A DNA stretch of 64,000 bases from Thioploca sp. (GTDB lineage Bacteria > Pseudomonadota > Gammaproteobacteria > Beggiatoales > Beggiatoaceae), in assembly GCA_012032555.1 (NCBI GenBank), contig JAAUSR010000014.1:1-64000 (forward strand). Direction: 5' to 3'. Within the stretch, counting starts at the first letter, position 1. Each line of letters starts with the position of its first letter. The position numbers and the translations under genes are program-made. Below the pieces are notes generated by a model. The model was not told where the DNA came from. It worked only from the letters and a program-made list of their open reading frames with translations, and made no database searches. This document shows, in pieces, positions 21,434 through 40,533 of this stretch.

Positions 21434-21437
21434 CCTC
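21434..21437 (-). promoter_or_regulatory. Shine-Dalgarno of hemH
   Basis: GAGG on the minus strand, 8 bases before the ATT at 21425. It is the best SD in the open frame and decides the proposed non-canonical start. Confidence 0.6.
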
Positions 21438-21668: not shown

Positions 21669-21720
21669 TTTGGTTTTTGTCAAGCGGGTTCTAGTGTCTA
21701 GTCAAGGATAAAAAGTCGTA

Positions 21721-23206
21721 TTAAATCAGCAGATGAGTCCCGGAGAAAAATTGGAAAATCCAACGTGCGGTTGGAGAGGTAATGGATTGGCCTGTTTGAT
21801 TAGGAAAGGTTTGGTGATGTGTCTTCAAGGTCTGGCGGATGCGGTGCTCCAGTGCCGCGTAAACCAGCAAGCTTAGAGTCATTACCATCATAAGCGCCAT
21901 AATGCGTTGAGGTGATTTGAGAAACCGTGTTGAGGCCATAAACATCGGAGCTTTAAGAAAACGAAAACCACATTCAACTTTCTGCTGATTTTTATAGGCT
22001 GCTATGAGTTCTTGGTCTGATAAGAGTTTGTGATTAAGTTGGTTGGTAGCTAGGATGAAACCGCTTTTGCGTCCTAAGCGACGTTTTCTTTCTTGGAGGT
22101 TTGATGCCAGTGTACCTTCAATGCGATAACTATAATGGTCCGGTTGGTGTCCTCGGGCGGGACGACCTTTGCCTTTGAAATGAGGAATCCGGTTAACTTT
22201 GATATTATTAATCAAGCTGATTTTGAGTTGGTTCTCAAATTTGACCAAGGTGTTACGTGCATCAACCTCACAAGCAATATCGTGTTGACAAAGTTTACTA
22301 AACTCCTTGCTGTTGGCACTGTTTATCAATCGTTTTTTGGACACGCTGGTAAGCTTCTGGTGAAAATATAACCACCCAACGCTGTTTGACTTCTCCGTAT
22401 TGGGTTTCAAGGCGACGGCATTGGGATTGGCTTAGAGCACACATCAGTTGGGGTGCCCATTCATCAAGGGTATCACTAGCTAGGCGTAAGGTTTCAGGTA
22501 CGCGTGAAATCCACTTCCAAGCGTTCATGAATTTCAAATTTTCAGCACTATACAAGGCACTGTTTGCAATGAGATATTCGAGCTGGAAATCATTACGCAT
22601 CTGCTCGGTGAAATCGCAAATCATCTCACGAAAACTTTCTTTGTCACGGTTATTACCATTCAAAGTCTGCATGAGTAAAGGAATTTCAGCCTGCCGTTCA
22701 CCAAGCCGTTATAAGACAACTTGATTCAGATCCGGACGGGGGTCGCGGCTATAACCTTTGGTCAGGTGAATCACACCGGTTTCTGATTCTTGGTCATATC
22801 GGCCATCAACATGAAAACTAGTCGAGTCCAAGTGTCCGAAACGACTAGATAAACCCAAACGATTGACGGCTTATGAAGCGAATTGCCAATATAACTGTTC
22901 TGGGCCAGATGCGTATATCGTATCTAAAACGCGTCCCAGTACCTCATCATTCAAGTGCTTAGCCTCAATACCTTTGCCTATCAATCGACCCACAGGTTTA
23001 TTACTGAAGAATGGTTCACTCAAATACAAGCTCCGATTAACCAAGCCAAGACCGTTTAAGACCATCGCTTTGACCGCTTGACCAATAGGAACGATTCGTT
23101 TAGTTTGGTCTGGTACTATGTACATTTCAGCAATTAAACCCAAATGGTCAAGTTGTTTGCTTCTGTAGTAGGCTTGGTGAACCTTTATCCCAATAGCCGC
23201 TGTCAT
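21721..23206 (-). mobile_element. IS1634-type insertion sequence, inactivated
   Basis: Transposase remnants in the right order on the minus strand: DUF4277-like N-terminus (22871-23206, with VKAMVLNGLGLVNRSLYLSEPF), a middle part (22298-22672), and a C-terminal part (21721-22410). The C-terminal part carries the DDE-region ILATNQ and the CGFRFLKAP motif, whose Glu (VECGFRF) is the likely third catalytic residue. A degraded stretch between 22673 and 22870 still encodes residues of the family. Frame breaks near 22390 and stops near 22700 and 22865 make it non-functional. Terminal repeats and target duplication were not identified, so the element may extend beyond these limits. Confidence 0.75.
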
Positions 23207-23950
23207 AAGAATCTTTCCGAGGTTGAAAAGATTTTATTATGGGGAGATATCTTCTTTATCTTGGAAGTCTCAGAGTCTTTCTTCCCGTTTTAGGAAATTT
23301 CTGGTTCTATCTGAAGTGTGCGGAATGTCGGATTTAATTCAATGGTGTAAGAAAAACTCTTCTGAGTGATAAGTCAGTATTTGACTTCATCCTTTTTCAA
23401 AAATTTCCAACTTCGACTTTAAATGATATCTCAAAAAATCATATTCTTCTTATTAAATTTATAAAACTGTATTATCATGTAAAAATAAAAACCTAGTCAA
23501 GTGTTTGTAACTACACTTTAATATTAAAAGCAGATCCCATGTTAAGCCGGATTTATCAATATCTTTCCAAAACTGTCCGACCAAAATAAAAATGCTAGAA
23601 TCGACAATTTATTGTAATCGGATTGTTAAATAAATTAATTACCCATTTTGATGAGATGCTGATTAGAAAGTGACGAAATTTGGGTATACACCCTCTTCTA
23701 ACCCCATTGCTCCGGTTATCCTGAATAATGACTTTGGGACGGAAACGGCTCGAGATGAGGCTGGCTTGGGATTTGCCAGCTGGTGTAAAACGTTAGGTGG
23801 TTGCACCAGCCGCTAATGGTTCCGGAGCAAGTGATTATTCTAATTTAATAGAAATACCTCAAGATTAATTAGCGTATTGACCCTAACGAACCGAGTACCC
23901 TCTCCCAAATCGGTAGCGGGTATTCTAGCCAAAAATGGGAGAATCCCAAG
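23207..23950. other. Non-coding region with structured-RNA candidate
   Basis: About 740 bases without a plausible gene. The 5' part probably contains the end of the IS element. The striking part is the palindrome-rich segment at 23707-23830, annotated separately. A GTACCCTCTC / GCGGGTATTC-like imperfect repeat sits at 23897-23926 just before the next gene. Confidence 0.55.
23707..23830. ncRNA. Candidate structured RNA, 124 bases
   Basis: A 9-bp perfect outer stem TTGCTCCGG (23707-23715) / CCGGAGCAA (23822-23830) encloses about 106 bases with competing inner stems: GCTGGC (23760-23765) with GCCAGC (23775-23780), GCTGGTG (23779-23785) with CACCAGC (23804-23810), or GGCTGG (23759-23764) with CCAGCC (23806-23811). 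It lies 120 bases before a plus-strand gene. It could be a cis-regulatory leader, a small RNA, or a mobile-element end. I do not recognise a known family. Confidence 0.3.
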
Positions 23951-24673
23951 ATGTTAGAACTCGACGAACGTGTAGATAATTTAGAAACCATATTTGGACG
24001 CTTTATCATCAATAATGATAAAACCCTGCGTCGTTTAGAACAGATGATGGTCGAAATGCGTCAGCAATCTGCTCAAGACCGTGAGCGAACCGAGCAGATC
24101 TTGGCTGAAATGCGCCAACAGGCGGAACAAGACCGTGAGCGAACCGACCAGAGATTCGCGCAAATGCAACAGCAAGCGGAACGCGACCGCCAGCAAGCCG
24201 AACAAGATCGCCGGGAGTTGAATAAGCAATGGGGGGACTTAGCTAATCGCTTAGGAACAGTTGCAGAAGATATTGTGGCTCCCAATCTCCCCCGCCTTGC
24301 TCAAGAACAGTTTGGTTGTCCTGACGAACCTGATGATTTTATGGTGCGACGTTGGGTGAGACATAAAGTCGATAACAGTAAACGTCGGGAATTTGATGTG
24401 GTGGTGGTTTATCCCCAGACCGTCTTGATTAATGAAACCAAAGCTACCCCGAGACTCAATTATATCGATGATTTCATCGCGGTCATGGCGGATATTCACG
24501 GCTATTTTCCCGAATATCAAGGTAAAACGATCATTCCCATCTTTGCGGGATTATTTATTCCGGACAATCTGCTACATTATTTAACTAAACATAAAATTTA
24601 TGCCTTGGGTATGGGAGAGGACACGATGGAATTATTAAATTTTGAGCAATTAGCCCAAGCTAACATTACTTAG
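23951..24673 (+). CDS. Coiled-coil protein with PD-(D/E)XK nuclease-like domain
   Basis: 240 residues. The first third is an extended coiled coil with repeats of QQAEQDRERT (about 35-95). The C-terminal half resembles the PD-(D/E)XK fold seen in DUF3782-type proteins: REFDVVVVYPQTVLINETK near 146-165, where Asp of FD and E-x-K of NETK are at catalytic spacing, followed by a strand and helix (IIPIFAGLFIPDNLLHYL). Many copies of this type occur in Beggiatoa-like and cyanobacterial genomes. Its role is unknown; a mobile-DNA or defence function is only a guess. The ATG at 23951 follows GGGAG at a plausible distance. Confidence 0.7.
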   Translation: MLELDERVDNLETIFGRFIINNDKTLRRLEQMMVEMRQQSAQDRERTEQILAEMRQQAEQDRERTDQRFAQMQQQAERDRQQAEQDRRELNKQWGDLANRLGTVAEDIVAPNLPRLAQEQFGCPDEPDDFMVRRWVRHKVDNSKRREFDVVVVYPQTVLINETKATPRLNYIDDFIAVMADIHGYFPEYQGKTIIPIFAGLFIPDNLLHYLTKHKIYALGMGEDTMELLNFEQLAQANIT

Positions 24674-25120
24674 CAATGCAAAGGTATCTACACAAAACTG
24701 AAAAAAATGGTAAACCGGTAAGTATGAAAAGAACCTCCCTGACTTAGACAAAAGACATCACATGAAAAACGAGTTTGGGTAAATTATCGTCACCGCTGAT
24801 AAAAGCAAGTGGTGAAGGTATTGAGGAGTACTGTCAAGAGTATGCCTTGGTAGTTCACGATTGAAGTAGTCTCAATTATACCCATCACGATAGCAAAAGA
24901 GATTAAGAAAGTACTACACAATCGTTATGAACCAGGATATGAATTACAAAGCTGTATAGTCCTAAGTGATCGAATCCCATTAGGGAGTACAGAACTTTGC
25001 TCATTACCCAGTTCTACTTGGTAATGCTGGTTTGCCAAGCTTAGCTTGGCGAAGCGGGATCACACGCAAAGCCGAGCTTCGCCCAAAAACACTACCAAGC
25101 AAAGCTTGGTAGCGAGCTAA
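24674..25120. other. Decayed region with hairpin-forming repeats
   Basis: No open gene. Codon-like sequence survives at about 24870-25020 on the plus strand (reading ...VLHNRYEPGYELQSCIVLSDRIPLG...), probably a decayed coding stretch. At 25033-25110 lie two hairpins, GCCAAGC-TTA-GCTTGGC and ACCAAGC-AAA-GCTTGGT, typical of small mobile repeats. Confidence 0.5.
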
Positions 25121-25459
25121 ATATCATCTTGGCAATTCGATTGGATGGTGACAGTTGCTGCATTAGGCTTTGGAGATATTCCAACAACAGTGTTTATTGA
25201 AGCATTTAACCTAATAAAAAGTAGAGGATGAGTCGCATTCAATATCAAAGAGACTTTTCTTGATAACAGCGATAAAACTGGGTTTTCAAAGATGATACGA
25301 ATATTGATATTCTCTGAATATCTCAATATTTATCATATTGAGCGTTACCGGCATAGGCTTTCAATAGAAGGAGAACCGCTTTATTACTTTGCTATATCAG
25401 GACGAAAGAATGGAGACATACCCTTACCATTTTTAGAATCAAAAAATATTTTCACTTAA
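25121..25459 (+). pseudogene. SAM methyltransferase-like remnant
   Basis: An in-frame stretch at 25121-25459 reads DWMVTVAALGFGDIP, then EAFNLIKSRG, then a TGA (25229-25231) in place of the expected Trp, then VAFNIKE and finally YRHRLSIEGEPLYYFAI. The GG-W-V-A-F-N-I-K pattern resembles the strand after motif I of class I SAM-dependent methyltransferases. The 5' half, with the SAM-binding glycine loop, is missing; repeat hairpins lie there. A one-base change (TGG to TGA) would explain the stop. Confidence 0.5.
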
Positions 25460-25614
25460 CAAGCTGATAGTTTCATGGGGCGTTGGTTGTATCTTAATCT
25501 CTGCTCCATGAAATGGGTTATTTTAAGTGTTAATCACGGAATAATTTTGCTTAGTGAACTATAAGGTAGGTTGTTAGTATGGCGTAACCTGTCGCTAACT
25601 GATCAATAGTTCAG

Positions 25615-26007
25615 CTAGTGGTGTGACTTACCAAAAATTTTTTGAGTAGATAGGTGAATGTCCATCATTTCATCAATGACTTCACTGTCGTTGATATCAA
25701 AAGTCTTGTGTTGATTAGGTTGTGAGTAGACAGTAATGGATTTAATCGCTGGTATAACTAACCAACAAGATTTAATTCCCAGGGCAAAATAAGCTTGGAA
25801 TTTGGCTATAATGTCATTCATACTTTGACGTGGTGATAGCACTTCAATCGCTAATGCCGGCATGTTGGTCATTTTCAATTCATCTAGCGGTTCACTTAAA
25901 TCGATTGCTTCCTGATAAATACTGATGTCCGGTATCAGTTCGTCTTTTGTGTTGAGATTAAACTGGTTTAAGTCAATTTGACTGGTATCTAAACTCAGTA
26001 ATGCCAA
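25615..26007 (-). pseudogene. Uma2 family protein, truncated by MITE insertion
   Basis: The remaining 130 residues match the C-terminal two thirds of the Uma2 gene at 2770: LIPDISIYQ (motif Asp), LAIEVLSPRQS and FQAYFALGIKSCWLV. The N-terminal 45 residues or so are gone. The reading frame upstream runs straight into the MITE end at 26000-26012 and uses a TTG inside it as the apparent start, so the insertion removed the native start. The upstream sequence beyond the MITE does not resemble the missing part. It is probably non-functional. Confidence 0.75.
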
Positions 26008-26125
26008 TTAAGTGCTTGTATCTTTGAACTTATTGAAAAATTGGTTAGTTGGGTTTCGCTTCGCTCGACCTAACCTACATAATTTATTGATTTGTAATCT
26101 ACTATTTTATGTCTTAATTCGCATT
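26000..26125. repeat. MITE family 1, copy A (126 bp)
   Basis: TIRs AATGCCAATTAAG (26000-26012) and CTTAATTCGCATT (26113-26125). In the reverse orientation the interior is almost the same as copies B and C, including the GTTGGGTTTCGCTTCGCTC-type hairpin. It cuts into the Uma2 gene. Confidence 0.8.
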
Positions 26126-26224
26126 CTAAACCATAACTTAAATAATACGACATCCTCTATTAACTCAAGCTGGTAACACAACTGTAATAAAGTAGCGTGT
26201 TGGGTGAGGCTATATCAATCCTTT

Positions 26225-26252
26225 GGTGGGCAACGCTGCGCTTTTGCCCACC
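26225..26252. repeat. Hairpin GGTGGGCAA / TTGCCCACC
   Basis: 9-bp perfect stem with a 10-base loop at 26225-26252. It lies 30 bases downstream of the minus-strand DGQHR gene, where it could help to terminate, and belongs to the GTGGGC/GCCCAC type of dispersed palindrome. Confidence 0.5.
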
Positions 26253-26281
26253 CTACCGGAATTAGGTTATTTCAACCAGAA

Positions 26282-28432
26282 TTAAACCGGTAATTTATTG
26301 ATACATACTTGATTTTCCAATGCCAACCAATATTTTCCGGGTTCCTCTTTGACTTCAGTCGATATTGATGGCATCGCATCAATGATGGCTAGATTATTTT
26401 TTAACGCCGCTACTGCAATTTCCACTTCTTGGCTGACATAGTTATCAACTAATTGCTCAAAGCGATTAACGGCATTTAATTTAGTCCGTTTGCCCGCTTT
26501 TACTTCTTGTTGATAACGTTTTTGTTCCGCTTCGGCTTGAGCAAGTTCTTCTCTTTCTTCGCCACTGAGGGATAAATAGAGACGATAATTTGCTTTGAAA
26601 GTTCTTTTACGGGCCATCTTATAGGTTTGGGGAAAAGCTAACAGTGCATTTTGTCCTTGTTGCTGTAACTTTTCTATCCATAATTTACTATCCCGTTTAG
26701 TAATACCCAGTTCGCTGATAATTTGTTTAACATAAAGTGGATTCGCCAAATGAACGAGTAATAATTGTGCTAAAATTTTGCGCGTTTCTTCACGAACGAT
26801 AATTTGAGTGCCTAAAAATACCGTATGTTGCATGTAAGGTTGCTCAAAATTAAAAAATTGTCCCGGTTGATGAAGTGCTAAATTTAACAAGCGGACGAAT
26901 CCTTGAGTGGCTAGCTGAGGTTCGGTGGTCAGGTTCCGCACGGTTTCGACAAATTGCGCCCAGGCTTCTAATAATGCTCTTTGAAAGAGTGCATATTGGA
27001 TTAAGGTAGTAACTTGTTTTTCTTTAGCTTGTTTGATTTTTAATTCCCAATGTCGGTAAAGCAACCGCGTACTTTCAAAAGATTTACCTTCACCAATCGG
27101 CATATAATCCAAAATTTGGTTAATGACTTGTCTTGCTTCATAGGCATCCGGTTGCTCGCTGGCAGCGAGTTCTTTTAGCAATTGGAGTTCTTGTGCAAAT
27201 ATTTCAACCGCAATGATAAATTCATGTGTGGTGAAAAAGATTAACTCGAGGCAAGGCAGCAGATGTTTTTTAACCTGTTCTGCCAAAACACTTTTCTGCG
27301 CGAGAGAAAACTGATTCCATTTGATTAAGGGTGGATAGCAATCCGTTTCAGTTTCTAGATGAGGGGTTGGATAAAGTTTATTTTCAACTTCATCCAGTCG
27401 GAGAATATAGTTCAACAAATTTCTTCGCTTGCCGATACTCTCTTCTAACGCTTTGTTAATAATACCAATACTGGTCAGAGAATAAGGGCGAACAATTTTG
27501 GTTGAATCCTTTTTCGTTGGCGTATTCCATTCAATGACAGCTAATCCTTCAGGACCACGACGGCGTAATATTTCATCACAAAATTGGCGACAAATAATAC
27601 TGCCTAAAGTGTTGTCTGATAACAGAATATTGAAGTGAACCCCGACCGGTTTAGCGGTATTATTGACGTCCACAAATAAATGTCGAAAAACTTCGGGTAC
27701 GGTTGGTATTCTGAGCGGTGCCGTTTCACTATTTTTCTGGCGTGTGGCATGAGGTGCAAAGAGAATACAAACAGGTACACCAAGATTTTCAAGTAATTGC
27801 GGATGTTTATCGTAAACTTTCTTAAGCGTTAATAATCGGTGTTGACCATCAATAATAATGAGACGGGCACCGATTTGATTGCCTTTGGCCAGCCGGATTT
27901 CCAATTGCACCGGTTCACATTGAACCCCAATTTGAGTGAGATTGTCGGTACTCAGTTGAATTTGATAGGCGTGTGGATTGGTGCTGGTAAAATAAGTCAA
28001 TTTAAATAATCCCGGCCATTCCCTGGTGAGATGTTCTTTACCACCGGTTGGGCATTCGACTTGGCTGATTTCATCAGTGTAGTAAGCCGACATGGTTTTA
28101 CCTTGAGTCGGGACAATGGCAGCCAGTAAAGGTGGAAAGAATACTGCCCGGGATTTAATTTCGGCGGCGGTTAGTTGCTTAACGTGTGGATTTAAATAGG
28201 GTTCCATTTCAACCTGAACGCGTTCTTCATCAATATCACGCTGCATCAATAGTTCAAAGTCGATTTGTTCTGGGCGAATATCTCGAGCAAACGTCAATTC
28301 AGCTAATTGCGCAGCGGAAAAAGTAGTCATGATATATTCGATCGGAAAAGAATCGCCGCTATAAAACCGACCAAAGCTACCAATTCGTACCAAGTTATAA
28401 ATTTGTTCTTCACCAAAAGTTTCTAGTAACAT
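26282..28432 (-). CDS. DGQHR-domain protein (DndB-like)
   Basis: 716 residues from the ATG at 28432, which follows GAGGAG by 8 bases (an upstream in-frame GTG at 28441 overlaps the SD and is unlikely). The DGQHR motif lies near residue 195 within RLIIIDGQHRLLTLK, and the FPPLLAAIVPTQG strand is the usual approach to it. The N-terminal 120 and C-terminal 400 residues resemble no family I know. DGQHR proteins include DndB, the regulator of phosphorothioation, but no dndA/C/D/E neighbours are here. It follows a LEA14-like lipoprotein gene after 51 bases. The DGQHR residues suggest nucleotide or DNA binding; the true role is unknown. Confidence 0.7.
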   Translation of the reverse strand: MLLETFGEEQIYNLVRIGSFGRFYSGDSFPIEYIMTTFSAAQLAELTFARDIRPEQIDFELLMQRDIDEERVQVEMEPYLNPHVKQLTAAEIKSRAVFFPPLLAAIVPTQGKTMSAYYTDEISQVECPTGGKEHLTREWPGLFKLTYFTSTNPHAYQIQLSTDNLTQIGVQCEPVQLEIRLAKGNQIGARLIIIDGQHRLLTLKKVYDKHPQLLENLGVPVCILFAPHATRQKNSETAPLRIPTVPEVFRHLFVDVNNTAKPVGVHFNILLSDNTLGSIICRQFCDEILRRRGPEGLAVIEWNTPTKKDSTKIVRPYSLTSIGIINKALEESIGKRRNLLNYILRLDEVENKLYPTPHLETETDCYPPLIKWNQFSLAQKSVLAEQVKKHLLPCLELIFFTTHEFIIAVEIFAQELQLLKELAASEQPDAYEARQVINQILDYMPIGEGKSFESTRLLYRHWELKIKQAKEKQVTTLIQYALFQRALLEAWAQFVETVRNLTTEPQLATQGFVRLLNLALHQPGQFFNFEQPYMQHTVFLGTQIIVREETRKILAQLLLVHLANPLYVKQIISELGITKRDSKLWIEKLQQQGQNALLAFPQTYKMARKRTFKANYRLYLSLSGEEREELAQAEAEQKRYQQEVKAGKRTKLNAVNRFEQLVDNYVSQEVEIAVAALKNNLAIIDAMPSISTEVKEEPGKYWLALENQVCINKLPV

Positions 28433-28483
28433 TGTTACCACTCCTCTAGCAGATGACAGAAAAAATAAGGAATCTTCCAGCGG

Positions 28484-28972
28484 TCATTTCTTCTCATCAG
28501 TTTGGGTTTCTCCCCAAAATAACGCCACTTCACCTTGATAATCAAATGGCAGTTGCGGTGCCCAATCCACTACGTTGACACCACCCACCAATTGATAACG
28601 AAATCGCTGATTAAGTAATGTCTTCCAATCCTGCCATTGCCCTATAAGCCGCATTAGATTACTCGTGACATCAATATCCAAAAATTCTTCACCTAAAGCC
28701 GGAATGGTAATCGCTTGATTATTTTTGCCTTGGGTAAATTCTTGATCATTAATTCGCACTTGGTAATTAAACTGAGTAATCGGCAGTGGAAAAGGATTGG
28801 GGTTGTTGAGACGGAGGCGTAACCGATAATTTTGTTCCAGCAAACCTAAATTGAGCAATCTAAAATCGGTTAAACTGATTTTAGGCGTAGCGGGTTTGAG
28901 AGGTAAATTAGTACAAGCAATAAGTAAAAATATTAAAATCAATAGTGTAAAAGGTTGAATCAGTTTAGACAT
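28484..28972 (-). CDS. LEA14-like (LEA type 2) lipoprotein
   Basis: 162 residues from the ATG at 28972. A lipoprotein signal (LILIFLLIAC) gives Cys20 as the anchor. The mature part has the LEA_2 beta-sandwich: RLRLRLNNPNPFPLPITQFNYQVRIND (about 60-85), with the conserved NPN-P turn. LEA14 proteins in plants bind membranes in dehydration; bacterial lipoprotein members are of unclear role. It lies 125 bases downstream of the AsnB-like gene and 51 upstream of the DGQHR gene, all on the minus strand, suggesting one transcript. Confidence 0.75.
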   Translation of the reverse strand: MSKLIQPFTLLILIFLLIACTNLPLKPATPKISLTDFRLLNLGLLEQNYRLRLRLNNPNPFPLPITQFNYQVRINDQEFTQGKNNQAITIPALGEEFLDIDVTSNLMRLIGQWQDWKTLLNQRFRYQLVGGVNVVDWAPQLPFDYQGEVALFWGETQTDEKK

Positions 28973-29097
28973 AAACGGCTTGTTTCCCAACAATAGGCCA
29001 GTTAGCGTTAAATTTTATCATGAAATGGGCGTTTGTAATTCGTTTAGTTATTTTGGTCAGATTCCATTCTGGAGGTTTCTTGATAGGAAATTGGAAA

Positions 29098-30945
29098 TTA
29101 TTGAGCCATCCCACTCGTTCGTAACCATAATTTCAAGGTTAATAACCGAAAAAATAAGTCACGGCGTTTCGTCCAATCCGCCATCGAAATTTGCCAAGGA
29201 TTATCACCATAGATGGCGGTTAAAATTTCTACTTCGGGTGGTGTAGGTGAATGCCATAATTCTCTCAGTACCTGACTGTGGCCCAGATAATAAGTCCAAT
29301 TCGGCCATGAGCCATCCGTTGTATGAACGGCCGGTCGTTTTTTTAAGCCCAGCAAATAACCGATTTCTCGTTGACTATTAGCCAATAACCATTGAATTAA
29401 TTTGACTTGGGTATGAACGCTTAACCTCGAACCATAATTACTATCAGCTACTGATTTTCCTCTTGATCCCACTATTTTAGCCACTGCTTGTTCAAATACT
29501 GTACTATTAACTTTAGCTAAGGTGGGAAAGCGACCATAGACTTCTAATACCGCCGGATCAGCAAATAGAGTATCCCAGGGTTGAGCTCTGCGTAAAACCA
29601 ACTGCGCCATATTAGCGAATATCCTCGATAAAGGTCTTATTCTTTTTTCTTCTACGGCTAAGGCATTATTTAAATAATCATCTAGTTGGATCCCTAACAG
29701 ACGGTCCTGGATTCGTTCATAAATGACGCGATTAAATTTCTCTGACTTCAAGGTGTAATAAGGTCGGTACCATTGTTTGTTATAACAATCGATTTGCCAC
29801 AAAGGTAATGTTTTACCGAAAAAATGTTGATATTTTTTATTGAACGCCAATCCTTTGAAAAGATAATCAGCGTAACAACCACTTAGTAACACACCCAACC
29901 CCAAGTTGCTAATCTGCTCATCTATTCCGAGAAAATGCCCATGCTGAAACTCAGACATTCCACCAGAAATTCTTACATTGTCTAGAGCGGTGCGGCCATA
30001 GTATTCAAAATCTCTTTGGAAACAATGATGAGTAGCATGGGCTAGTGCCGCTAATTTTTTAGCTGTTTTCAATTCAACATTGGGCTCGTCAAACAACGTG
30101 ATACAATTCACGGCTTGGGGTTGTTCAACACTAAAAAGGATGGCCCTAGAATCCACACCACCACTCAAAAGAATACCCACTTTGCCCAGATGAGATGAGG
30201 TACGGATACGTACTGCCTGGCGAATAGCCTCAGCTAATTCAGTGGCGAGTTCCTCACTATTAGTAGCCGTTGGGGTTTCATCCAGGTAATGGGGATGCCA
30301 ATATTCAACTTGATGTGGCGGTTGGTTGGGTTGGTTTAAATCCCAGGTATAGTGAGTTCCTGGATCTAATTGATAAATTTCTTGGTAATAAGAATGTGGA
30401 TGAGCGCAACGTCCAACAATGATAAATTCGGCCATCGTCACCAAATCAAGGTGAAGTTGATATCTATTTGTAGTTAATAACTGCGCTAGAATATCAGGAT
30501 GGGAACCCAGATAAATACCCCCAACAGTGGATGCAAACAACGGATAAATTCCCATTCTATCCGTGATAACATGTAATTGTTGAGTTTTTTGTTCATAAAT
30601 AACTAGCGTACCGCCATTTAACCAATTAACAATGTTATTTTGGTATTTAAACCATTGAGCTATAACCTGTTTAGCAACTACGCCACCTTCAAAAGGCAGT
30701 TTTTGTGCTGCTTGCCATTCTTGCGCTGGCAGTGCAATTCTACCAATAAACCCCGCCCAGGTACCGGTTTCTTTGTCAATAGCAGCACCCCAGTAATCCA
30801 GCGAGTCAACTCGTACAATACCGGCTTTCAAGGAACTTAAATCATACTGTTGTGGTTTTGCTGCCTTAACAAAGCACAGTTTACTCAGAATATTTTTAAA
30901 ATCTGCAGATGAAAATTCATCTGCAGTGAGAATAATATCCGACAT
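29098..30945 (-). CDS. Asparagine synthetase-like protein without the Cys2 nucleophile
   Basis: 615 residues. A glutaminase-like N-terminal half precedes the ATP-pyrophosphatase motif LLSGGVDSRAIL near residue 262, the clear mark of an AsnB-like synthetase domain. The start MSDIIL lacks the Cys2 that AsnB needs for glutamine hydrolysis, so it may use free ammonia or another nucleophile, or cyclise a substrate as beta-lactam synthetases and lasso-peptide cyclases do. No precursor-peptide gene or lasso protease was seen. Downstream lie a lipoprotein gene and the DGQHR gene. Confidence 0.7.
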   Translation of the reverse strand: MSDIILTADEFSSADFKNILSKLCFVKAAKPQQYDLSSLKAGIVRVDSLDYWGAAIDKETGTWAGFIGRIALPAQEWQAAQKLPFEGGVVAKQVIAQWFKYQNNIVNWLNGGTLVIYEQKTQQLHVITDRMGIYPLFASTVGGIYLGSHPDILAQLLTTNRYQLHLDLVTMAEFIIVGRCAHPHSYYQEIYQLDPGTHYTWDLNQPNQPPHQVEYWHPHYLDETPTATNSEELATELAEAIRQAVRIRTSSHLGKVGILLSGGVDSRAILFSVEQPQAVNCITLFDEPNVELKTAKKLAALAHATHHCFQRDFEYYGRTALDNVRISGGMSEFQHGHFLGIDEQISNLGLGVLLSGCYADYLFKGLAFNKKYQHFFGKTLPLWQIDCYNKQWYRPYYTLKSEKFNRVIYERIQDRLLGIQLDDYLNNALAVEEKRIRPLSRIFANMAQLVLRRAQPWDTLFADPAVLEVYGRFPTLAKVNSTVFEQAVAKIVGSRGKSVADSNYGSRLSVHTQVKLIQWLLANSQREIGYLLGLKKRPAVHTTDGSWPNWTYYLGHSQVLRELWHSPTPPEVEILTAIYGDNPWQISMADWTKRRDLFFRLLTLKLWLRTSGMAQ

Positions 30946-31281
30946 ATCTTAATCACTTTAGTTCAATCTGAACTATTCATGTTATGTTGTCATTATAATT
31001 ATTTACTCGATAATTGAATAAATTATTATGGTTAATAGACGCTGTGTTACCCGTTATTGGTCGTATAGCTAAACGAATAAATAACCTTACAATTTAATTT
31101 TATATTTTAAGCAAGATTAAACGGATTATCAGGTAAGCGGTTGGTACCAAGTAGTTGAAAACAGTTCAAATCAAACGAGATAGAATGAATCCTAATTATC
31201 TGTTAATCCGGTTAATCTTGTCCAAAAGTGAAAGTTAAATTCACCTACTGTATTAGGTAAGATACTTAATTAGCTGTTTTA

Positions 31282-31417
31282 ATGCTATAAGTAAGCATAG
31301 TACAATGAACAAATTCTTATTTCTACAATGTCATCACCAATAATTGATATGTCATCATCCCGTACCATTTGTTTAGCCATAGCTGTAGTTGAAGTGTTAG
31401 CGCCGAGTATAACTTTA
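31282..31417 (+). pseudogene. Glycerate kinase 5' remnant with internal deletion
   Basis: 31282-31380 matches 39120-39219 (upstream region and first 18 or so codons of the glycerate kinase) with about 8 differences. It continues at once with 31381-31417, which matches 39568-39604, an internal part of the same gene, so about 348 bases are missing. The remnant stops at 31417. It is in the same orientation as the intact gene. Confidence 0.8.
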
Positions 31418-31527
31418 TAGATATATCGTTATCATCACTTCTGCGGCGGTGAAGCTTAAATCGGCATAATTTGACATGCGCTGACAATACATCCACAACC
31501 CTTGATAATAAGGCTTGCATATATACA

Positions 31528-31651
31528 AATGCGAATTAAGAGCTAAAATATGAGATTATAAATCAGTAAATTATGTCGGTTAGGTTGAGCGAAGCAAAAC
31601 CCAACTAACCGATTTTTAAATAAGTTAAAGATACCAGACTTAATTGGCATT
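31528..31651. repeat. MITE family 1, copy B (124 bp)
   Basis: TIRs AATGCGAATTAAG (31528-31540) and CTTAATTGGCATT (31639-31651) flanked by AC on both sides, a possible 2-bp target duplication. The interior contains GGTTGAGCGAAGC-like sequence and CCCAACTAACC. A second CTTAATTCGCATT terminus lies at 31776-31788. Confidence 0.8.
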
Positions 31652-31876
31652 ACAAATAAATTGCTATTAATTGTTTTTGCCAGTCCATCGTGTTGCTTTC
31701 CTTAATTGAGATGAGGTTGATTACTTTTCTCATTATTAAGTAGTCGACAGACGGATTAGCTACCCATTTTTAGCTCTTAATTCGCATTTAAATACTTTAC
31801 TTGGTTTATTTTTCTACACTTTATTTTACCTTTACTTTGGCAAAGGTATTATTCACTCTTAAAAGGAGTATTCATT

Positions 31877-34800
31877 ATGTTACCAGAACATATTGAAATT
31901 TGCTTAATTCAACCACGACGAACTCCGCAACCGATTACCATTGAAGCGCTTCGATTCCGTAACTGCCGACGAAATTTCAAGCAAATCCCTAAACTGGCTA
32001 CTTTCCTGGTCAGTTTAACTTTGATATTGCCTTTTGCGGCACGGGCAGCGACCAATTGCGAGACAGTGGGTGAAATTACCACAGTAGAATGTGAAGCCCT
32101 TATTAATCTTTATAATGGTACCGATGGAGAACATTGGTATGACAGTCCTGGAAATAATTGGAATGTGACAAATGAACCCTGTAGTTGGGTAGGAGTTACT
32201 TGTGTTGGTGGACATGTAACTGAAATTAATAGAGAACGGCAAGGGTTATTGGGTACACTTCCCCATTTAGGTGCGTTAAGTTATTTGCGGGTGCTTGATT
32301 TAAGTGGTTGTGGGGGGTGGTTCGACGAATTGAATCAAGACGATAACCTGAATCGAATAAAAGGCTCTATTCTAGGATCACGTTTGCCAACCAGTTTACA
32401 GACACTCGATCTATCTTGCACTAACTTAGAAGGAACTATCTCTGATTTTAGATCCTTAACGGGATTGCAGGTTCTTAATCTATCTTCTAACTTATTTAGA
32501 GGGCCAATTCCAAACCCCAGGTTACACTTCTCAACGAGTTTACGGACTCTCGATCTGTCTTCCAATTCTGGACTAGAACTAGGAATTATTCCTAACTTTA
32601 AAGATTTCACAAATTTACAAGAACTTATATTGTTTTCTACTAATAGAACTGGCCCGATTGAGGTTTCATCTTTTCCAACGAGTTTGCGGGTTCTTTATCT
32701 AGATAACAACCAATTACAGGGAAATATCCCCGATTTCAGACCATTAACTCGGTTGCAGAATCTTAATCTGTCTAATAATCAATTTAGCGGGATCCTTTCA
32801 AGTTCAAATTTTCCAACCAGCTTGCAGACCCTCGATCTCTCTTCTAATTCTGGACTGGAATCTCAAAGTATTCCTAATTTTAATAGATTTAGTCAGTTAC
32901 AAACACTTAATTTGAGTAATACTCGACGAACCGGATCGGTTCAAGGAACTGATTTTCCAAGTCGTTTGCAATGGCTTTCTCTGTCTAGCAACCAATTAAA
33001 CGAAATTGCAGATGATTTCAGTCAACTGAATAGTTTGTCTCATCTCGAGTTAAACTCCAACCAATTTAGTGGTTCTCTTCCCAGTTTACCCTTGCCAACC
33101 AGTTTGCAAACGCTTTATCTAGCGGGTAATCAATTAACCGGGCTCGAACCGGATTTTAGTCAACTGAAGAGTTTGTCTTATCTCGATTTAAGCCAAAACC
33201 AATTCAGTGGTTCTTTTCCCGGCTTACCCTTACCAACCAGTTTGCAAACGCTTTATCTAGCGGGCAACAAAATAGATAAACTTGAAAATGATTTCAGTAA
33301 ACTCAGTAGATTGTCTTATCTTAACCTCAGCCAAAACCAACTCAGCGGCTCTCTTGCTAGCCCCCCTTTTCCAATCGGTTTAGGAGAGCTTTATCTGGCT
33401 GGTAATCAATTAACCGAAATTGACAAAAATTTTAATCGCTTAAATAAGTTGTCTTATCTAGATTTAAGCCGTAATCAACTCACTGGCCCCCTGTTTGGAT
33501 CCAATTTACCAACTAGTTTAGGAAGGCTTTATCTGAATGACAATCAGTTAACCGGAATTGCCGCTTTTAGTCAATTGACCCGTCTAGAGTATCTCGAACT
33601 TAGCCGTAACCAAATCACTGGTTTGCTGTTAGGTGCCGCTTTTCCAACGAGTTTGCAAGAGCTTTATCTGAATGACAATCAATTAACTAAAATTGAAAAC
33701 GATTTCAATAGATTAACTAAGTTAAACTATCTCAACGTCAGTCACAATCAGCTCAGCGGTTCTCTTTCCAAAGCAACCTTTCCGACCAGTTTGGAAACGC
33801 TTCTTCTGAATAACAATCAACTAACGGGTAAGCTACCCAATCTCAGTCGCTTGATTCAGTTACAGTATCTTAACTTAAGTCAAAATCAATTAAAAGGCAT
33901 TCTGCCTGATTTTAGTCAACTCACCCAGTTGAGAACGCTTGATTTATCTCGCAACCAATTCAGTGGAGCTATTCCATCCACATTAACTAGCTTACAGCAA
34001 CTGGGGAGCTTGGATTTAGGTTACAACTATTTAACAACTCCTTATCCAGAAGTACTTAAATTTCTTGAAGCACCTGGAAATAAAGACCCTGATTGGTCCT
34101 ATACTCAGGGTCCACAACTCCAATGTCCTAATGGAGGAAGAGTCAATATTCAACCTTCACCGGTTGATTTTGGAACGGAGGTGATTAACAGTCGCACAGC
34201 AGCAACCGTTTATATGCGATCTCAAAATTGTGATGATATTCAAATCCAAACCATTGAGTTTGGTGGCAGCAATATTGACGAATTTAAGATAACTAGTAGA
34301 AGTTGCAATTCGGGAGGATGGCAGGGAGATAGCTACTCCTCCTGCCAATTTACCATTGAGTTTTCACCCACCGCCGCCGGTATCAAAGAAGGGGCTTCTG
34401 TTAACCTGACCTTCACCGTTCCTAATATGCCAATTTTTTCCATGCCGCTGCAGGCAATAGCAGTTGAATCGGGTGAACCCCAAATTGAGATGTCTTCAAA
34501 CTCATATGATTTTGGAGAAGTTACGCTGGATAACTCCTCAGAATTACAACCATTTACTGTCACTAATACCGGTAACATTAATCTGAAATTTGAGAAGATT
34601 GAGTTAACTGGCACTGCCACCAAAGACTTTAAAGACTATATTTATAGCTGCTTTACTGAAAAAGTATTACTACCTTCAAAACAGTGCTTCATTAATACCC
34701 AGTTCTTTCCCACTTTATCAGCCGGTGTTAAGGAAGCGAAATTGAGCATCACTTCTAATGCCGCTGAGAAGCCGGTAGAAATCCCATTGAATGGAACCGC

Positions 34801-37800
34801 TCTTGAGCCAGAAATGTGTTCAGAAGATAAAATTACGATTGCATCAGTCGGTAATGGTTCATGGAATTCCCCCGCAACTTGGACAGAAAACAAAATTCCC
34901 CTGGAAGAAGATGTCGTGCAAATTAACCAAGGTCACTCGGTCGTCGGTATACCTTATGCCGCAGTGAAAACACTTTGTATTGAAGCCGGTGGCATTTTGA
35001 CCAGTGCCGATAATCAAGGAACGTATTTGATTATTCAAGCTAGTGATTATATTGAAAATAAAGGTAAAATCGTCGGTCAAGATGGCACTCATGAATTAGC
35101 AGCGACGACTTTATGTACCACAGATTACTGGTCTGCAATTGGTAAAGAAAGTTGTGCTCAACCGGGCGCGGCTGTTTATCTATCAGTCGGTGATTGGTCA
35201 GAAACGCGGTTGCGAAATGAAGGTACCATTACTGCGGGTCGCGGTGGGAATGGCAAACAATATAGTGCCTATGGTGGTATTGTTGGAATATATGGCGGTG
35301 GTCTAACTAACACTGCCATTAATGGCAAAAGGGGTACTATTTTAAGTGGTAGCGGCGGTCATATAACTAGTAAACTGACCGGGCAAGCTGGTAATGGCGG
35401 TGATCTCTCCATGTTAGCTAAAGATTACTTACATCATGATGAAGTCATGATTTTTGCTGGGGATGGTGGTAATTGCAATCCAGAAGCGACTGAATCGCAA
35501 TGGGGTGGTAAGGGTGGCGATATCCGCTTCAATGCACCTTTCCGCGTTGATCTAGTGGGAACATTCGGCGCCGGCACCGGTGGAATTCACTGCCAACCAC
35601 CAGAAAACAATGGCCAAGATGGTCAGTTTATCAGTGATCCCGGGATTATTTCTTTGTCAGGTGCTAACACAAAAATTAGCGGTGGTGATATTGCCATTTA
35701 TGGTGGGAAGGACTGGGTATTGGATCTCAGTAATCTCAATGGATTCAAAGGCCCAATTATAACGGCTACCGGCAATATCACTCTCGCGGTGGGTGAAGGC
35801 GAAAAGAGTGCTATTAATCTGAGAGGTAGTAAAGGTCTGCTCTTACAAGCCGCCGGTCAAGTCAATCTCTTTTCTGATCGTATTTTACTGGATGACAAGG
35901 TAGAACTATCAGATATCATTAAAGCGAACAAAATTGTGGTCGGTCCAAGCCAGATTTTGCGCGGTGTGTCTTTGGCAGGGTCCGGTAAATTTTTTGGCAA
36001 GCCTGGAGCCATTTTGCCAATTCGTCTAATTCTCTCTAATAGTGGTCCAGAAAAAGATAGCTATTTTTTAGAAGTGCAAGACTTAGCGGGCTGGAGTTTG
36101 AGCGAATTATCCTCTCCTATTGAAATTTATGGGTTAAACAATGTTTTATTGAACCTGAGTGTTCAGTTACCGACTACCGGTGGTGAAATGAATCTCGTCA
36201 AGGTAACAGCGACTTCGCAAATTGATCCCAAGGTGAAAGCGGTTGCTGAAATACAAATCATCGTGGCCAAACCCAATACCAATGCTGGATCTATCCTGGT
36301 TCCCAAGGAAGTGCCGATCGTTGTTAGCAATGGGGATATGACTACTTCTCCACCGACTACAACTAGCACCATTGAAAATAATACAACCATTCCTCCAATC
36401 ACCGAAGTAACCCCGGTCGATATTGTCCAAGATAGAACGCCTTTTGATGAAGAATTACCACCGACTAGTAAAGAAAATATCACCCTCCCACCCATCGAGA
36501 GTGAAATAGATAATATTGCCTTAGCAGAAATAAGTGCGATTCCTACCACGGTGATTACTTCGGCGTTACCACCCATTCCCAATTGCCCACTGACTGGCAT
36601 TATCGATTGGATGTGTGATAATCACGGACAAGTGATGATCGATGCGACTCTTGAAAGCAATGCTAATGTGGCCGGTGGTGAATTGGCTGGAATGATTAAT
36701 AATCAAGGAATTATCTCCAATGTGACTATTCAACCTGGAACAGAGGTTCATAGCGGTCAATTGACTGGCTACATTAATAACCAAGGTCTTTTAGCTGATT
36801 TTAATTTTGTAGGCGCCTTCGTTAATAATGGTATCTTATCTGGCACGATCACTAACAATACACAAGTAGGTGGTGTCTTCAAAGATGTCCACTTAGCAGC
36901 TAATACCCAGATAACTGGTGGTTATTTGCAAGGTGATATTTTAGGTGATGTGAATGCCCCAGCACATTTGGCAAAGCTTACTGTCAAAGCCGGTAGTCAT
37001 CTATCCAATGTCATTCTCGGTGAAGATGTAAAATTAGCCCCAGGCGTAACCTTCCAAGATGTCCAACTCGTAGCACCTTTGTCCTTCACTGCGGGTAACT
37101 TACAAGGTAATGTTACCGGTGTTAATTTCACCAACGATTTGATGTTCAAAGATATACACCTTGCTGCTCATAGTCAATTAAACGGTGTCCAATTGCAAGG
37201 TAATATTTTGGGTGATATTAATGCGCCAGCGTTATTGGAAAACGTCGAAATCAAAGCCGGCAGTTACCTGACCGGGGTGATACTGGGTAATGGTGTGAAA
37301 CTAGCTGAATCAGTTACTTTTGGAGAAGGTGTCCAAATCGCCTCCTCGAATTCTATCGACTCATCTCCATTACCAGCTCTTGGTGCGATAGCGACTGATC
37401 ACCAAGGAAAAATTATCAACACGGTGGCCATGTTAACTGGAGGTATTTCAGTCAATGGGGCCCCCTTTGATGCTAAAGTGATTACCAAGCCGTCAGATAC
37501 TGTAAACATTAGTGGCCAAATTAACCCCGATCCAAGACATCTTGGACAACAAGCTGAAATCGTTGTCTTGATTACTTATCAATCATTCAATGCGGCTAAA
37601 AATGAACACTCCCTTGATTTGATGTTAGATGCTCATGGTCAAATTTTACCTTGGGATGGAAATAATGCCCATTTAGCATTTTATCAACGGGTTGTTTTAG
37701 AAGCAAATCAACCGGTAGTGCTCTATCAAGGTTCTGTAGATGTATCGGGTAGTTTAGATATTTCTTTCGGATATCGTTTAGAAAACGGCACTATGGTACA

Positions 37801-37840
37801 AAATGCTCAACCGATTGAAATGACTGTGATTAAGGAATAA
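31877..37840 (+). CDS. Giant secreted LRR / G8 / beta-solenoid surface protein
   Basis: 1987 residues. A long signal peptide (about 59 residues, hydrophobic part LATFLVSLTLILPFAARA) is followed by an LRR cap (HWYDSPGNNW..CSWVGVTC) and about 22 plant-type leucine-rich repeats (110-715; L-x-x-L-x-L-S-x-N-x-L-x-G). Two HYDIN-like choice-of-anchor domains come next (about 758-970), then a G8-like domain (GNGSWNSPATWTENKIPLEEDVV, about 990) and a beta-rich, glycine-rich region to about 1300. A NEW3-like Ig domain (about 1375), a Thr/Pro linker, a C-terminal solenoid of GG-x-L-x-G-x-I-x-N repeats (about 1575-1810) and an end domain (ALGAIATD.. to YRLENGT) complete it. The last parts are shared with the protein at 62084. 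The length and LRRs suggest surface adhesion; this is inference. Confidence 0.85.
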   Translation: MLPEHIEICLIQPRRTPQPITIEALRFRNCRRNFKQIPKLATFLVSLTLILPFAARAATNCETVGEITTVECEALINLYNGTDGEHWYDSPGNNWNVTNEPCSWVGVTCVGGHVTEINRERQGLLGTLPHLGALSYLRVLDLSGCGGWFDELNQDDNLNRIKGSILGSRLPTSLQTLDLSCTNLEGTISDFRSLTGLQVLNLSSNLFRGPIPNPRLHFSTSLRTLDLSSNSGLELGIIPNFKDFTNLQELILFSTNRTGPIEVSSFPTSLRVLYLDNNQLQGNIPDFRPLTRLQNLNLSNNQFSGILSSSNFPTSLQTLDLSSNSGLESQSIPNFNRFSQLQTLNLSNTRRTGSVQGTDFPSRLQWLSLSSNQLNEIADDFSQLNSLSHLELNSNQFSGSLPSLPLPTSLQTLYLAGNQLTGLEPDFSQLKSLSYLDLSQNQFSGSFPGLPLPTSLQTLYLAGNKIDKLENDFSKLSRLSYLNLSQNQLSGSLASPPFPIGLGELYLAGNQLTEIDKNFNRLNKLSYLDLSRNQLTGPLFGSNLPTSLGRLYLNDNQLTGIAAFSQLTRLEYLELSRNQITGLLLGAAFPTSLQELYLNDNQLTKIENDFNRLTKLNYLNVSHNQLSGSLSKATFPTSLETLLLNNNQLTGKLPNLSRLIQLQYLNLSQNQLKGILPDFSQLTQLRTLDLSRNQFSGAIPSTLTSLQQLGSLDLGYNYLTTPYPEVLKFLEAPGNKDPDWSYTQGPQLQCPNGGRVNIQPSPVDFGTEVINSRTAATVYMRSQNCDDIQIQTIEFGGSNIDEFKITSRSCNSGGWQGDSYSSCQFTIEFSPTAAGIKEGASVNLTFTVPNMPIFSMPLQAIAVESGEPQIEMSSNSYDFGEVTLDNSSELQPFTVTNTGNINLKFEKIELTGTATKDFKDYIYSCFTEKVLLPSKQCFINTQFFPTLSAGVKEAKLSITSNAAEKPVEIPLNGTALEPEMCSEDKITIASVGNGSWNSPATWTENKIPLEEDVVQINQGHSVVGIPYAAVKTLCIEAGGILTSADNQGTYLIIQASDYIENKGKIVGQDGTHELAATTLCTTDYWSAIGKESCAQPGAAVYLSVGDWSETRLRNEGTITAGRGGNGKQYSAYGGIVGIYGGGLTNTAINGKRGTILSGSGGHITSKLTGQAGNGGDLSMLAKDYLHHDEVMIFAGDGGNCNPEATESQWGGKGGDIRFNAPFRVDLVGTFGAGTGGIHCQPPENNGQDGQFISDPGIISLSGANTKISGGDIAIYGGKDWVLDLSNLNGFKGPIITATGNITLAVGEGEKSAINLRGSKGLLLQAAGQVNLFSDRILLDDKVELSDIIKANKIVVGPSQILRGVSLAGSGKFFGKPGAILPIRLILSNSGPEKDSYFLEVQDLAGWSLSELSSPIEIYGLNNVLLNLSVQLPTTGGEMNLVKVTATSQIDPKVKAVAEIQIIVAKPNTNAGSILVPKEVPIVVSNGDMTTSPPTTTSTIENNTTIPPITEVTPVDIVQDRTPFDEELPPTSKENITLPPIESEIDNIALAEISAIPTTVITSALPPIPNCPLTGIIDWMCDNHGQVMIDATLESNANVAGGELAGMINNQGIISNVTIQPGTEVHSGQLTGYINNQGLLADFNFVGAFVNNGILSGTITNNTQVGGVFKDVHLAANTQITGGYLQGDILGDVNAPAHLAKLTVKAGSHLSNVILGEDVKLAPGVTFQDVQLVAPLSFTAGNLQGNVTGVNFTNDLMFKDIHLAAHSQLNGVQLQGNILGDINAPALLENVEIKAGSYLTGVILGNGVKLAESVTFGEGVQIASSNSIDSSPLPALGAIATDHQGKIINTVAMLTGGISVNGAPFDAKVITKPSDTVNISGQINPDPRHLGQQAEIVVLITYQSFNAAKNEHSLDLMLDAHGQILPWDGNNAHLAFYQRVVLEANQPVVLYQGSVDVSGSLDISFGYRLENGTMVQNAQPIEMTVIKE

Positions 37841-37857
37841 TAGTTACCGGTCGGATA

Positions 37858-37978
37858 GGCTGCATTTTGATGCGGCCCGCCTAACTCACCTTTGTTAAAG
37901 TGGGAAATTAGAGTAACTTGCTTCTCATGGCTCTTTAACCATCTCGGCCCTTGTTTAATTAAGGCGGGGCAGAGGTGG
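37858..37978 (+). terminator. Two hairpins after the giant gene
   Basis: GGCTGCAT-TTTG-ATGCGGCC (37858-37877) and CCATCTC...GAGGTGG (37939-37978) lie just after the 37840 stop. Neither has a long T run. They probably reduce read-through; they might also be palindromic repeats. Confidence 0.4.
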
Positions 37979-38030
37979 TTGTGTGAGGTAAAATTAAATG
38001 AGATAGATCATAATATTTTGATATAAATCT

Positions 38031-39119
38031 TATAGAGTCGAGGAAAACTAAGTTATAATAACCGGTGAATGGTTATGACAATGGGATAACATGGCAAGAA
38101 ATAGAGGTGAGACTGGAGAAATCTGCCGACGTTTGGTAGTCAATTGATTAGATTCTGGAAAAACCCAAGAAGAAGTAGCAAAACTAATCGAGTTGTCTCA
38201 AAGCGCGGTGAGCCAAATCTGGAAACGTTTCCGCGAATCCGGAGAAGAAGGTTTGGCATCTCGTCATTCTCCCGATGCGCCGTCCAAATTAACGACCGAA
38301 CCAAAAGCTATGATACCGGAATTATTAGCGGCTGGCCCTTTGGCATATGGTTTTGAAGACAATCTCTGGACACGTGGTCGTGTTCAAATCGTGATTCAGG
38401 AAACCTTCGGGGTAACTGACTGTGAAAGTCATGTGGGCGTGATTCTCAAAGAGATCGGCTTTTCCCGGCAAAAGCCTCGTCGCCACGATTCGCGGCAAAA
38501 ACCGGAGAAGGTTCGCCAATGGTGCTAAGAAACCCTGTCCGAGTTAAAAACAAGCCTGAGAGGAAGCCAGAATAGTGGTATATATTGATGAGGCCGGTTT
38601 CAATTTAATGCCCTCAAGCGGACATACTTGGAGTCCAGTGAGACAAATCCCGATACGGGAGACGGGCTGCTGCTACCAACCTCTTGCTATGATAAGTGCC
38701 GTGACGGAAACGGGCAGTTTTTATTATGCCATCCAAGAGGAGAGCTTTACTGGCGCAACGGTTACGGACTTTCTGCGTGGTTTGAGCCATTAGATTGACT
38801 ATCCGCTTTTAGTGGTATGGGACAATGCGTCGAGCCACCGAGCCGAAGAAGTCAAAGCCTTTCTCAGTCAAGAAAATACCGGACGTATTCATCTGGCCGC
38901 GCAGCCCAGCTATAGTCCAGAATTGAATGCTGACAAGCTGGCATGGAATTGGTTAAAGTACCACCCATTAAAAAATGTCGGTTGCAAAACCTGGGGAGAT
39001 CTCAAAGAAACGGTTCAAGCAGCGGCTGAAAAACTCAAATCCAGTCCCAAGATTATTCGAGGCTTTTTCTCACATCCGGAGCTGGGCTTTTTTATGATTA
39101 ATTAATCCTCGTGTCTATA
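38031..39119 (+). mobile_element. IS630-family element, inactivated
   Basis: Inverted ends TATAGAGTCGAGGA (38031-38044) and TCCTCGTGTCTATA (39106-39119), 12 of 14 positions matching, with TA at both extremes as expected of IS630/Tc1 target duplication. It encloses a decayed transposase (38091-39105). The right end abuts the 100-base duplicated segment that starts at 39120. Confidence 0.75.
38091..39105 (+). pseudogene. IS630 transposase, multiple stops
   Basis: An HTH region (QEEVAKLIELSQSAVSQIWKRF) is followed by an IS630-type DDE domain: YIDEAGFNL (first D), VVWDNASSHRAEEVKAFL (second D) and QPSYSPELNADKLAWNW, where the third catalytic E should follow P-I or P-A-E but reads AD. Stops at about 38145, 38526 and 38791 and a frameshift between 38528 and 38575 inactivate it. 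Confidence 0.8.
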
Positions 39120-39166
39120 ATGCTTATAAGCAAGCATAGTACAATGAACAAATTCTTATTTCTACC

Positions 39167-40408
39167 ATGTCATCACCAATAATTGATATTTCATTATCCC
39201 GTACCAGTTGTTTAGCCATTTATCACCAAGCCTTAGCAAGGGTTAATGGACGCCAATGTGTAGCTACTTTTCTACGTCAGTATTCTTATAAAACGCCCGT
39301 TGCTCTCATTGCGCTGGGTAAAGCAGCTACTCAAATGGCCGTGGGTGCCTTTGATGTTTTAGGTACGGCGATTTCTCATGCCCTTCTCATCACTAAAGTC
39401 GGACATTTAGATCGACCACTTATTCAAGATTATCCCATAACTTGTCTAGAAGCAGCGCATCCCATACCCGATGAGTCTAGCTTAGCGGCTGGACAAGTTT
39501 TACTCGATTTTATTAACCAGTTACCCCCTGGGTTCCCAATTTTATTGCTGATATCAGGTGGTACTTCAACTGTAGTTGAAGTGTTAGCGCCGAGTATAAC
39601 TTTAAGCGATTTACAAAAAGTTAACCAATGGTTATTGGGTTCCGGTTTAGATATTCACTCCATTAATAAAATTCGTAAAAGTTTATCAGCTATCAAAGGG
39701 GGACGATTAGCGACTTATTTGCTTGGGCATCCTGTCTTGAACTTATTGATTTCTGATGTTCCAGGTAATGATTTATCAGCCATTGGCTCTGGTTTACTTA
39801 CCTATCATGAAAAACAACCGCTACCGGCTTTTCTCCCTGATTGGTTGTACCGTTTAACGACTCAAGTAAGTCCTTTAGCTTCATTTCATCATTTCGAGCA
39901 GATTATTCAATATTTGGTTGCTACGCCAGCATTGGCTCGCCAAGGTGCAAGTGAAATCGCACAATGGCTTAATTATCCTATTTTCAATCATGACGAATTC
40001 ATTGCTGGAGAAGCCTCAATAGCCGGTCGTATTTTAGCGCAACAATTAAGTATCTCAGTGCCGAGTATTCATATCTGGTCTAGTGAAACGACAGTGCATT
40101 TACCACCACAACCAGGCCAAGGGGGACGTTGTCAAAGTTTAGCATTAGCCGCCGCTATTGAACTTGCGGAGCAAAATGATATTTATTTACTCGCTGCCGG
40201 TACTGATGGTAACGATGGTCCCGGGCAAGTGGCGGGTGCATTAATTGATAGCAGAACGATATCACGTGGTAGTCAAGCTGGGTTAAATGCCGCTAGTTGT
40301 TTAGCGCAAGCCGATGCTGGTCGATTTCTAGCCGTTAGTGGTGATCTCATTTATACTGGGCCAACCGGAACCAATGTCATGGATATCATCATCGGTTGGA
40401 AACGATAG
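39167..40408 (+). CDS. Glycerate 2-kinase (DUF4147/MOFRL family)
   Basis: 413 residues. Family landmarks are ALGKAATQMAVGAF near 45, SGGTSTVVEV near 130, SDVPGNDLSAIGSG near 200, and the MOFRL end GTDGNDGP..AGALID and GPTGTNVMD. Enzymes of this type (TtuD/GckA) phosphorylate D-glycerate to 2-phosphoglycerate in glyoxylate and tartrate metabolism. Its 5' end also occurs as a remnant at 31282. The ATG at 39167 is preceded by TTCTACC with no clear SD. It stands alone between the IS630 element and the convergent molybdopterin genes. Confidence 0.9.
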   Translation: MSSPIIDISLSRTSCLAIYHQALARVNGRQCVATFLRQYSYKTPVALIALGKAATQMAVGAFDVLGTAISHALLITKVGHLDRPLIQDYPITCLEAAHPIPDESSLAAGQVLLDFINQLPPGFPILLLISGGTSTVVEVLAPSITLSDLQKVNQWLLGSGLDIHSINKIRKSLSAIKGGRLATYLLGHPVLNLLISDVPGNDLSAIGSGLLTYHEKQPLPAFLPDWLYRLTTQVSPLASFHHFEQIIQYLVATPALARQGASEIAQWLNYPIFNHDEFIAGEASIAGRILAQQLSISVPSIHIWSSETTVHLPPQPGQGGRCQSLALAAAIELAEQNDIYLLAAGTDGNDGPGQVAGALIDSRTISRGSQAGLNAASCLAQADAGRFLAVSGDLIYTGPTGTNVMDIIIGWKR

Positions 40409-40533
40409 AACTCAATACTCACTTAGAAATTTAAGTGCGGTGCATACCCGCTTCACGTGTTAAAGAGCGGGAGTTAAGATCGCCTCTTCAATACTTGGCA
40501 GTAAATTACAATAGCGGCGGTTGTTCTTAGAAG

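Follow-up and report, generated by a model that had tools for sequence, protein, structure and literature searches.

The 5′ end of a glycerate kinase gene occurs twice in a draft genome of Thioploca sp., on either side of a giant gene and a dead insertion sequence (IS), and the arrangement is probably the outcome of a kinase duplication in this lineage, after which the native left copy (K1) decayed, the right copy (K2) was retained, and ISs came to mark both edges. That much is common to two accounts weighed below, one in which an IS formed the duplication junction and one that starts from a plain tandem duplication. The locus is ordinary genome wear, not a novel mode of transfer for the giant gene. 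It offers a polarised example, drawn from the comparison of two congeneric species, of an IS, a duplication and later deletions reshaping a locus, together with a caution that a direct repeat around a large gene is not proof of that gene's insertion; as it stands, the locus carries no wider mechanistic consequence. The window analysed here is a stretch of 64,000 nucleotides from a genome assembled in 198 contigs (G000). The nearest genome compared (G001) belongs to the same genus, is complete in one contig of 4.81 Mb, and served as the sole same-genus comparison. Coordinates of the features are collected in Table 1.

Table 1. Features of the kinase locus, in order along the window; L049 denotes the corresponding locus of G001.
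Feature	Position	Strand	Basis and remarks
Asparagine-synthase/amidotransferase-like gene, conserved left neighbour of the G001 kinase	29098..30945	-	Pfam PF00733; 88.5% nt identity to L049 13347-15212
Dispersed repeat of ~164 bp, probably a MITE	31083..31246	.	Inverted arms 31091-31136 / 31196-31241; alignment gap at L049 15326-15340
Native kinase upstream sequence, kept only before the left copy	31247..31279	+	Part of an 82% alignment, 31247-31380 to L049 15340-15473
K1, decayed left kinase leader and 5′ end	31280..31417	+	348-bp internal in-frame deletion; 3′ truncated
Truncated relic of a presumed IS982-like element (transposase-gene start and one end with terminal repeat)	31434..31791	-	Interrupted by a MITE; 77-83% matches, in the right order, to a longer copy at C96 (L004)
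125-bp MITE nested in the relic	31528..31653	.	TACAAAT on both sides; dispersed in the genome
Giant ORF, 1987 aa	31877..37840	+	Signal-like N end, leucine-rich repeats, choice-of-anchor D domains, hexapeptide-like repeats
Left flank of the IS630 element, 192 bp	37841..38032	.	Single copy in G000, absent from G001
Dead IS630-family element, 1085 bp, with terminal inverted repeats	38033..39117	+	NF033545 match; end alignment; three-frame translation
K2, intact right copy, glycerate 2-kinase-type gene	39118..40412	+	CDS 39167-40408; PF13660 and PF05161; 85% identity to L049 15372-16666
Rearrangement breakpoint just 3′ of K2	40413..40523	.	Sequence matching neither G001 context

Two copies of the kinase 5′ end

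An earlier note on this DNA had reported that 31282-31380 repeats 39120-39219 and continues into 31381-31417, equal to 39568-39604, leaving a 348-base internal deletion in the left copy. Both the repeat and the deletion are confirmed, with the limits of the first match shifted to 31280-31380 and 39118-39219. These two stretches are 94% identical (E 1.2e-37 in the window, E 7e-38 genome-wide), and 31383-31417 matches 39570-39604 at 100% over 35 nt (E 1.7e-10 in the window, E 7e-11 in the whole-genome search); the dinucleotide AG at 31381-31382 is the one that G001 has at that place, so the second match between the copies begins at 31381/39568. With G001 as guide, K1 is seen to be missing 39220-39567, a length of 348 bp that is divisible by three, and one T of the leader, and since it consists of two separate kinase segments, the duplicated stretch must have spanned at least 487 bp. 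The similarity lies far above chance level, a repeat finder and a self-comparison of the window recovered the same repeat, and a whole-genome search with 31200-31500 returned 39118-39219 and 39570-39604 as the only partners of its kinase part. Both copies lie within one 103-kb contig, 7.84 kb apart, and the island between them holds the giant ORF and the IS630 relic, in spacing and contents as previously described. The relic at 31434-31791 with its nested MITE, and the exact coincidence of the IS630 end with the start of the right copy, come in addition to what that note recorded.

K2 has 413 intact codons, carries the two domains typical of glycerate 2-kinases, DUF4147 (PF13660, E 2e-49) and MOFRL (PF05161, E 4e-31), and is accordingly predicted to encode a MOFRL-type glycerate 2-kinase; matches to NF041176 and NF040791 fall below cut-off. 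Its frame is intact and its dN/dS is 0.17 over the whole length, with neighbouring genes at 0.10-0.12; judged by these substitution patterns, K2 is under purifying selection. Because K2 stayed a working gene, K1 was free to decay. What is left of K1 includes an open frame of 30 codons at 31328-31420 (MSSPIIDMSSSRTICLAIAVVEVLAPSITL), where the 348-bp deletion preserves the reading frame and the homologous stretch gives way at once to a TAG; this open frame is probably a coincidence. K1 ends at 31417, 17 bases short of the truncated relic, with 16 bp between them, and a search of 31418-31530 for continuing kinase sequence gave nothing above shuffles. A seven-base match, TAGATAT, pairing 31418 with 39648 as a possible kinase continuation, was too short for use.

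Native context on the left, foreign DNA on the right

G001 possesses one kinase, directly beside the asparagine-synthase-like gene (L049 15421-16662, plus strand, and 13347-15212, minus strand, ~208 bp apart), and the interval contains no giant gene and no IS. Window positions 31247-31380 align to this locus unbroken at 31280, while the right copy aligns only from 39118 on; the left copy has therefore kept its native upstream sequence, and what precedes the right copy is foreign. The suggestion that the kinase was once present on both sides of the island thus gains support from the native upstream sequence and the two gene segments of K1. The segment 31083-31246, between the asparagine-synthase-like gene and K1, is not in G001, and similar pieces occur on contigs C166 and C101. 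The truncated relic on the other side of K1, which we take to belong to the IS982 family, retains a terminal repeat at 31768-31792 and has its transposase truncated at 31434, on the side facing K1. The MITE nested in it has IS982-like ends, and copies stand at 25998-26125, 31528-31653 and 61834-61958 of the window; some 40 matches are found in the genome, partial ones counted, with copies ~80-93% alike.

On the right, K2 begins exactly at the TA of the IS630 element, its native upstream sequence lost. The element has TA on both sides (38031-38032 and 39118-39119), inverted ends of the form TTATAGA-GTCGAGGA-like / TTATAGACACGAGGA, and a transposase broken by stops and a frameshift, the first part of which matches NF033545 (E 9.5e-17; 61.4 bits for this fragment, short of the curated cut-off of 100). 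The genome has no other long copy of the element, and a partial second one lies at C147. The right TA is also the first base pair of the K1/K2 homology, and the native site reads TTT-TA-ATGC. Searches to the left of the element for kinase-upstream or kinase-3′ DNA gave nothing above shuffles, and a second copy of 37838-38036 was found nowhere in the genome. As the left flank is not kinase-upstream DNA, IS630 did not simply insert before an unmoved kinase.

The 3′ side of K2 has been rearranged as well. From 40524 onward the window follows G001 from 2095395 downward (the moaE to bamA region, inverted), whereas an Rpn-family gene and a qmo-like cluster lie downstream of the kinase in G001; in the window's genome both sit on contig C94. 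The right-side arrangement is compatible with an inversion with an endpoint immediately 3′ of the kinase; C94:73885-81277, the G000 site of the region downstream of the kinase in G001, yielded no kinase remnant. Three relatives outside the genus (G007, G011, G015) have no kinase neighbours in common with the window, and in a fourth, the Thiomargarita-like MAG G024, the kinase adjoins rseP, so the position of the kinase is evidently variable in this family. In that MAG the two genes lie directly side by side at L051 7342-9918; rseP of the window is 9 kb from K2. A single scan of genome contigs yielded no further same-genus locus.

Age of the duplication

Across ~139 columns, six substitutions and one 1-base gap separate K1 from K2, a divergence of ~4%, and the two have in common 18 states that differ from G001. 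Because both copies are ~15-18% divergent from G001, the duplication postdates the separation of the two species, for which dS is ~0.35-0.51 across the kinase and its neighbours. With the kinase single-copy in G001, the duplication is most simply derived. Relatives sharing the same arrangement through an ancient tandem duplication, an outcome that the earlier note had named as fatal to its proposal, are not what the one same-genus genome displays: G001 has a single kinase and no island. When the differences between the copies are polarised by G001, four substitutions fall on the K2 branch and none on the K1 branch, to which the gap belongs.

How the locus may have formed

The account that we tentatively prefer, at a level of belief somewhat short of even, is a lineage-specific kinase duplication with IS630 at the join, in the order copy 1, IS, copy 2, followed by decay of copy 1. 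IS630 would have made the join between the first unit and the second kinase copy, and the giant gene would at that joining have sat within, or become attached to, the terminal portion of the first unit rather than having been inserted with a 100-bp target duplication. Deletions and insertions of the IS982 element and the MITE would then have eroded K1, the MITE striking the IS982 copy later, and the 3′ part of K1 and that of the IS982 copy may have disappeared in a single deletion. The rearrangement 3′ of K2 that joined K2 to the moaE region would have eliminated or split off another copy of the downstream unit.

This IS-junction account is consistent with the start of homology at 39118-39119, immediately beyond the IS end at 39117, and with the native upstream context of K1, which aligns to G001 over 31247-31380 and lacks an IS. 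The sequence left of the IS does not recur downstream of K2, however: 37838-38036 is single-copy and a breakpoint follows K2. Since this downstream second copy is missing, the locus resembles a copy-IS-copy duplication but is not a proven member of that class; a complete unit duplication should have given a second 37838-38036, which must have been lost. Also against the IS-junction account is the placing of substitutions on K2 and none on K1, the copy presumed free to change; the simple expectation would be the reverse, although the sites are few. Further counts against it are that Tc1/mariner-like IS630 elements move by cut-and-paste and that other IS families are named in the published copy-IS-copy cases considered here. 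The element itself is IS630-like in its transposase match, terminal inverted repeats, TA target duplication and length of 1085 bp; it departs from the family pattern in its broken transposase and in flanks that do not come from one target site.

A single IS between the two copies of a duplication has been documented directly in laboratory evolution, in cases that name IS families other than IS630 (PMC11708052, PMC13423834). In SBW25-Dup-IS (PMC11708052) and in unflanked IS amplifications (PMC13423834), as here, the IS end coincides with the start of the second copy, the element bridges sequences that had not been adjacent, and the outer flank of the first copy is without an IS. The kinase locus differs in being old and decayed, with the unit whole on neither side, and in carrying IS630 instead of IS1 or IS481. 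K1 for its part resembles a partial-duplication pseudogene in having an internal deletion, no 3′ end, insertions of IS982 and a MITE, and an intact paralogue next door, and differs from one in keeping a 30-codon open frame, because its deletion is a multiple of three.

Alternative explanations

The same anatomy could have arisen if a plain tandem kinase duplication came first, with IS630 landing later before K2 and an adjacent deletion removing the native upstream sequence of K2 and other DNA, the giant gene being independent of these events. Every step would be ordinary, K1 would be redundant and free to gather insertions, and IS ends often suffer deletions beside them (PMC11708052); we nevertheless consider this rather unlikely, as it requires a separate deletion ending exactly at the left end of IS630, to the left of which no trace of kinase-upstream or kinase-downstream DNA remains. 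An improbable alternative is a Campbell-type single crossover, in which the native kinase crossed over with a circle or other donor that carried the 5′ part of the kinase beside IS630 and the giant gene; the product would be a truncated left copy behind its native upstream sequence and an intact right copy behind foreign DNA. One such event predicts exactly the observed left/right asymmetry, and the excess of changes on K2 would fit a slightly diverged donor. It needs, however, an earlier and unseen capture of a kinase fragment beside IS630, no donor copy was found in G000 or G001, and the truncated IS982 relic shows that the left edge was reshaped later.

Mobility of the giant gene itself, by insertion with a long duplicated target, is very doubtful. 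A direct repeat does flank the gene, the site is empty in G001, and the ORF is one of a large family that is dispersed in its own genome and in relatives (best paralogues near 50%) and variable in place. At 18 other giant-gene loci (13 in G000 and 5 in G001), however, not one host-gene repeat spans the gene, and short dispersed repeats only were found, at two loci; the duplicated kinase end is therefore peculiar to this locus. In addition, the edges of the repeat coincide with the IS630 end and the IS982 relic, not with ends common to the family, and the island has no recombinase except the dead IS genes. The earlier proposal that the giant gene arrived by duplication-insertion is not borne out by these data, and nothing suggests that the gene moves via host-gene duplication. 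Scarcely credible is the more elaborate notion that the giant leucine-rich-repeat genes found in these sulfur bacteria are propagated with the help of ISs, part of the adjacent gene being copied on each occasion, and that the 30-codon frame of K1 has been kept as a small gene driven by the native promoter of the kinase. An assembly artefact or a strain mixture might be suspected in so fragmented a draft, and is most improbable here: both junctions lie deep in the contig, IS630 is effectively single-copy and repeat-driven misassembly is thus unlikely, the MITE copies are only ~80-93% alike, and K1 and K2 differ by several substitutions and by deletions.

Other features of the window

Two members of the giant leucine-rich-repeat/choice-of-anchor-D family occur in this one contig, at 31877-37840 and at 62084-64000, the latter running on to contig position ~67.9 kb, and dozens of related stretches are present per genome in this bacterial family. 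An ORF at 26282-28441, with no dnd genes noted alongside, encodes a 719-aa protein that has a weak, below-cut-off DndB-like match and is 93% conserved at the amino acid level in G001. Finally, around 12330-26222 the window is a mosaic relative to G001: 4544-12330 and 26222-31082 follow 2.75-2.765 Mb of that genome, and 12652-21438 follows 4.487-4.496 Mb.
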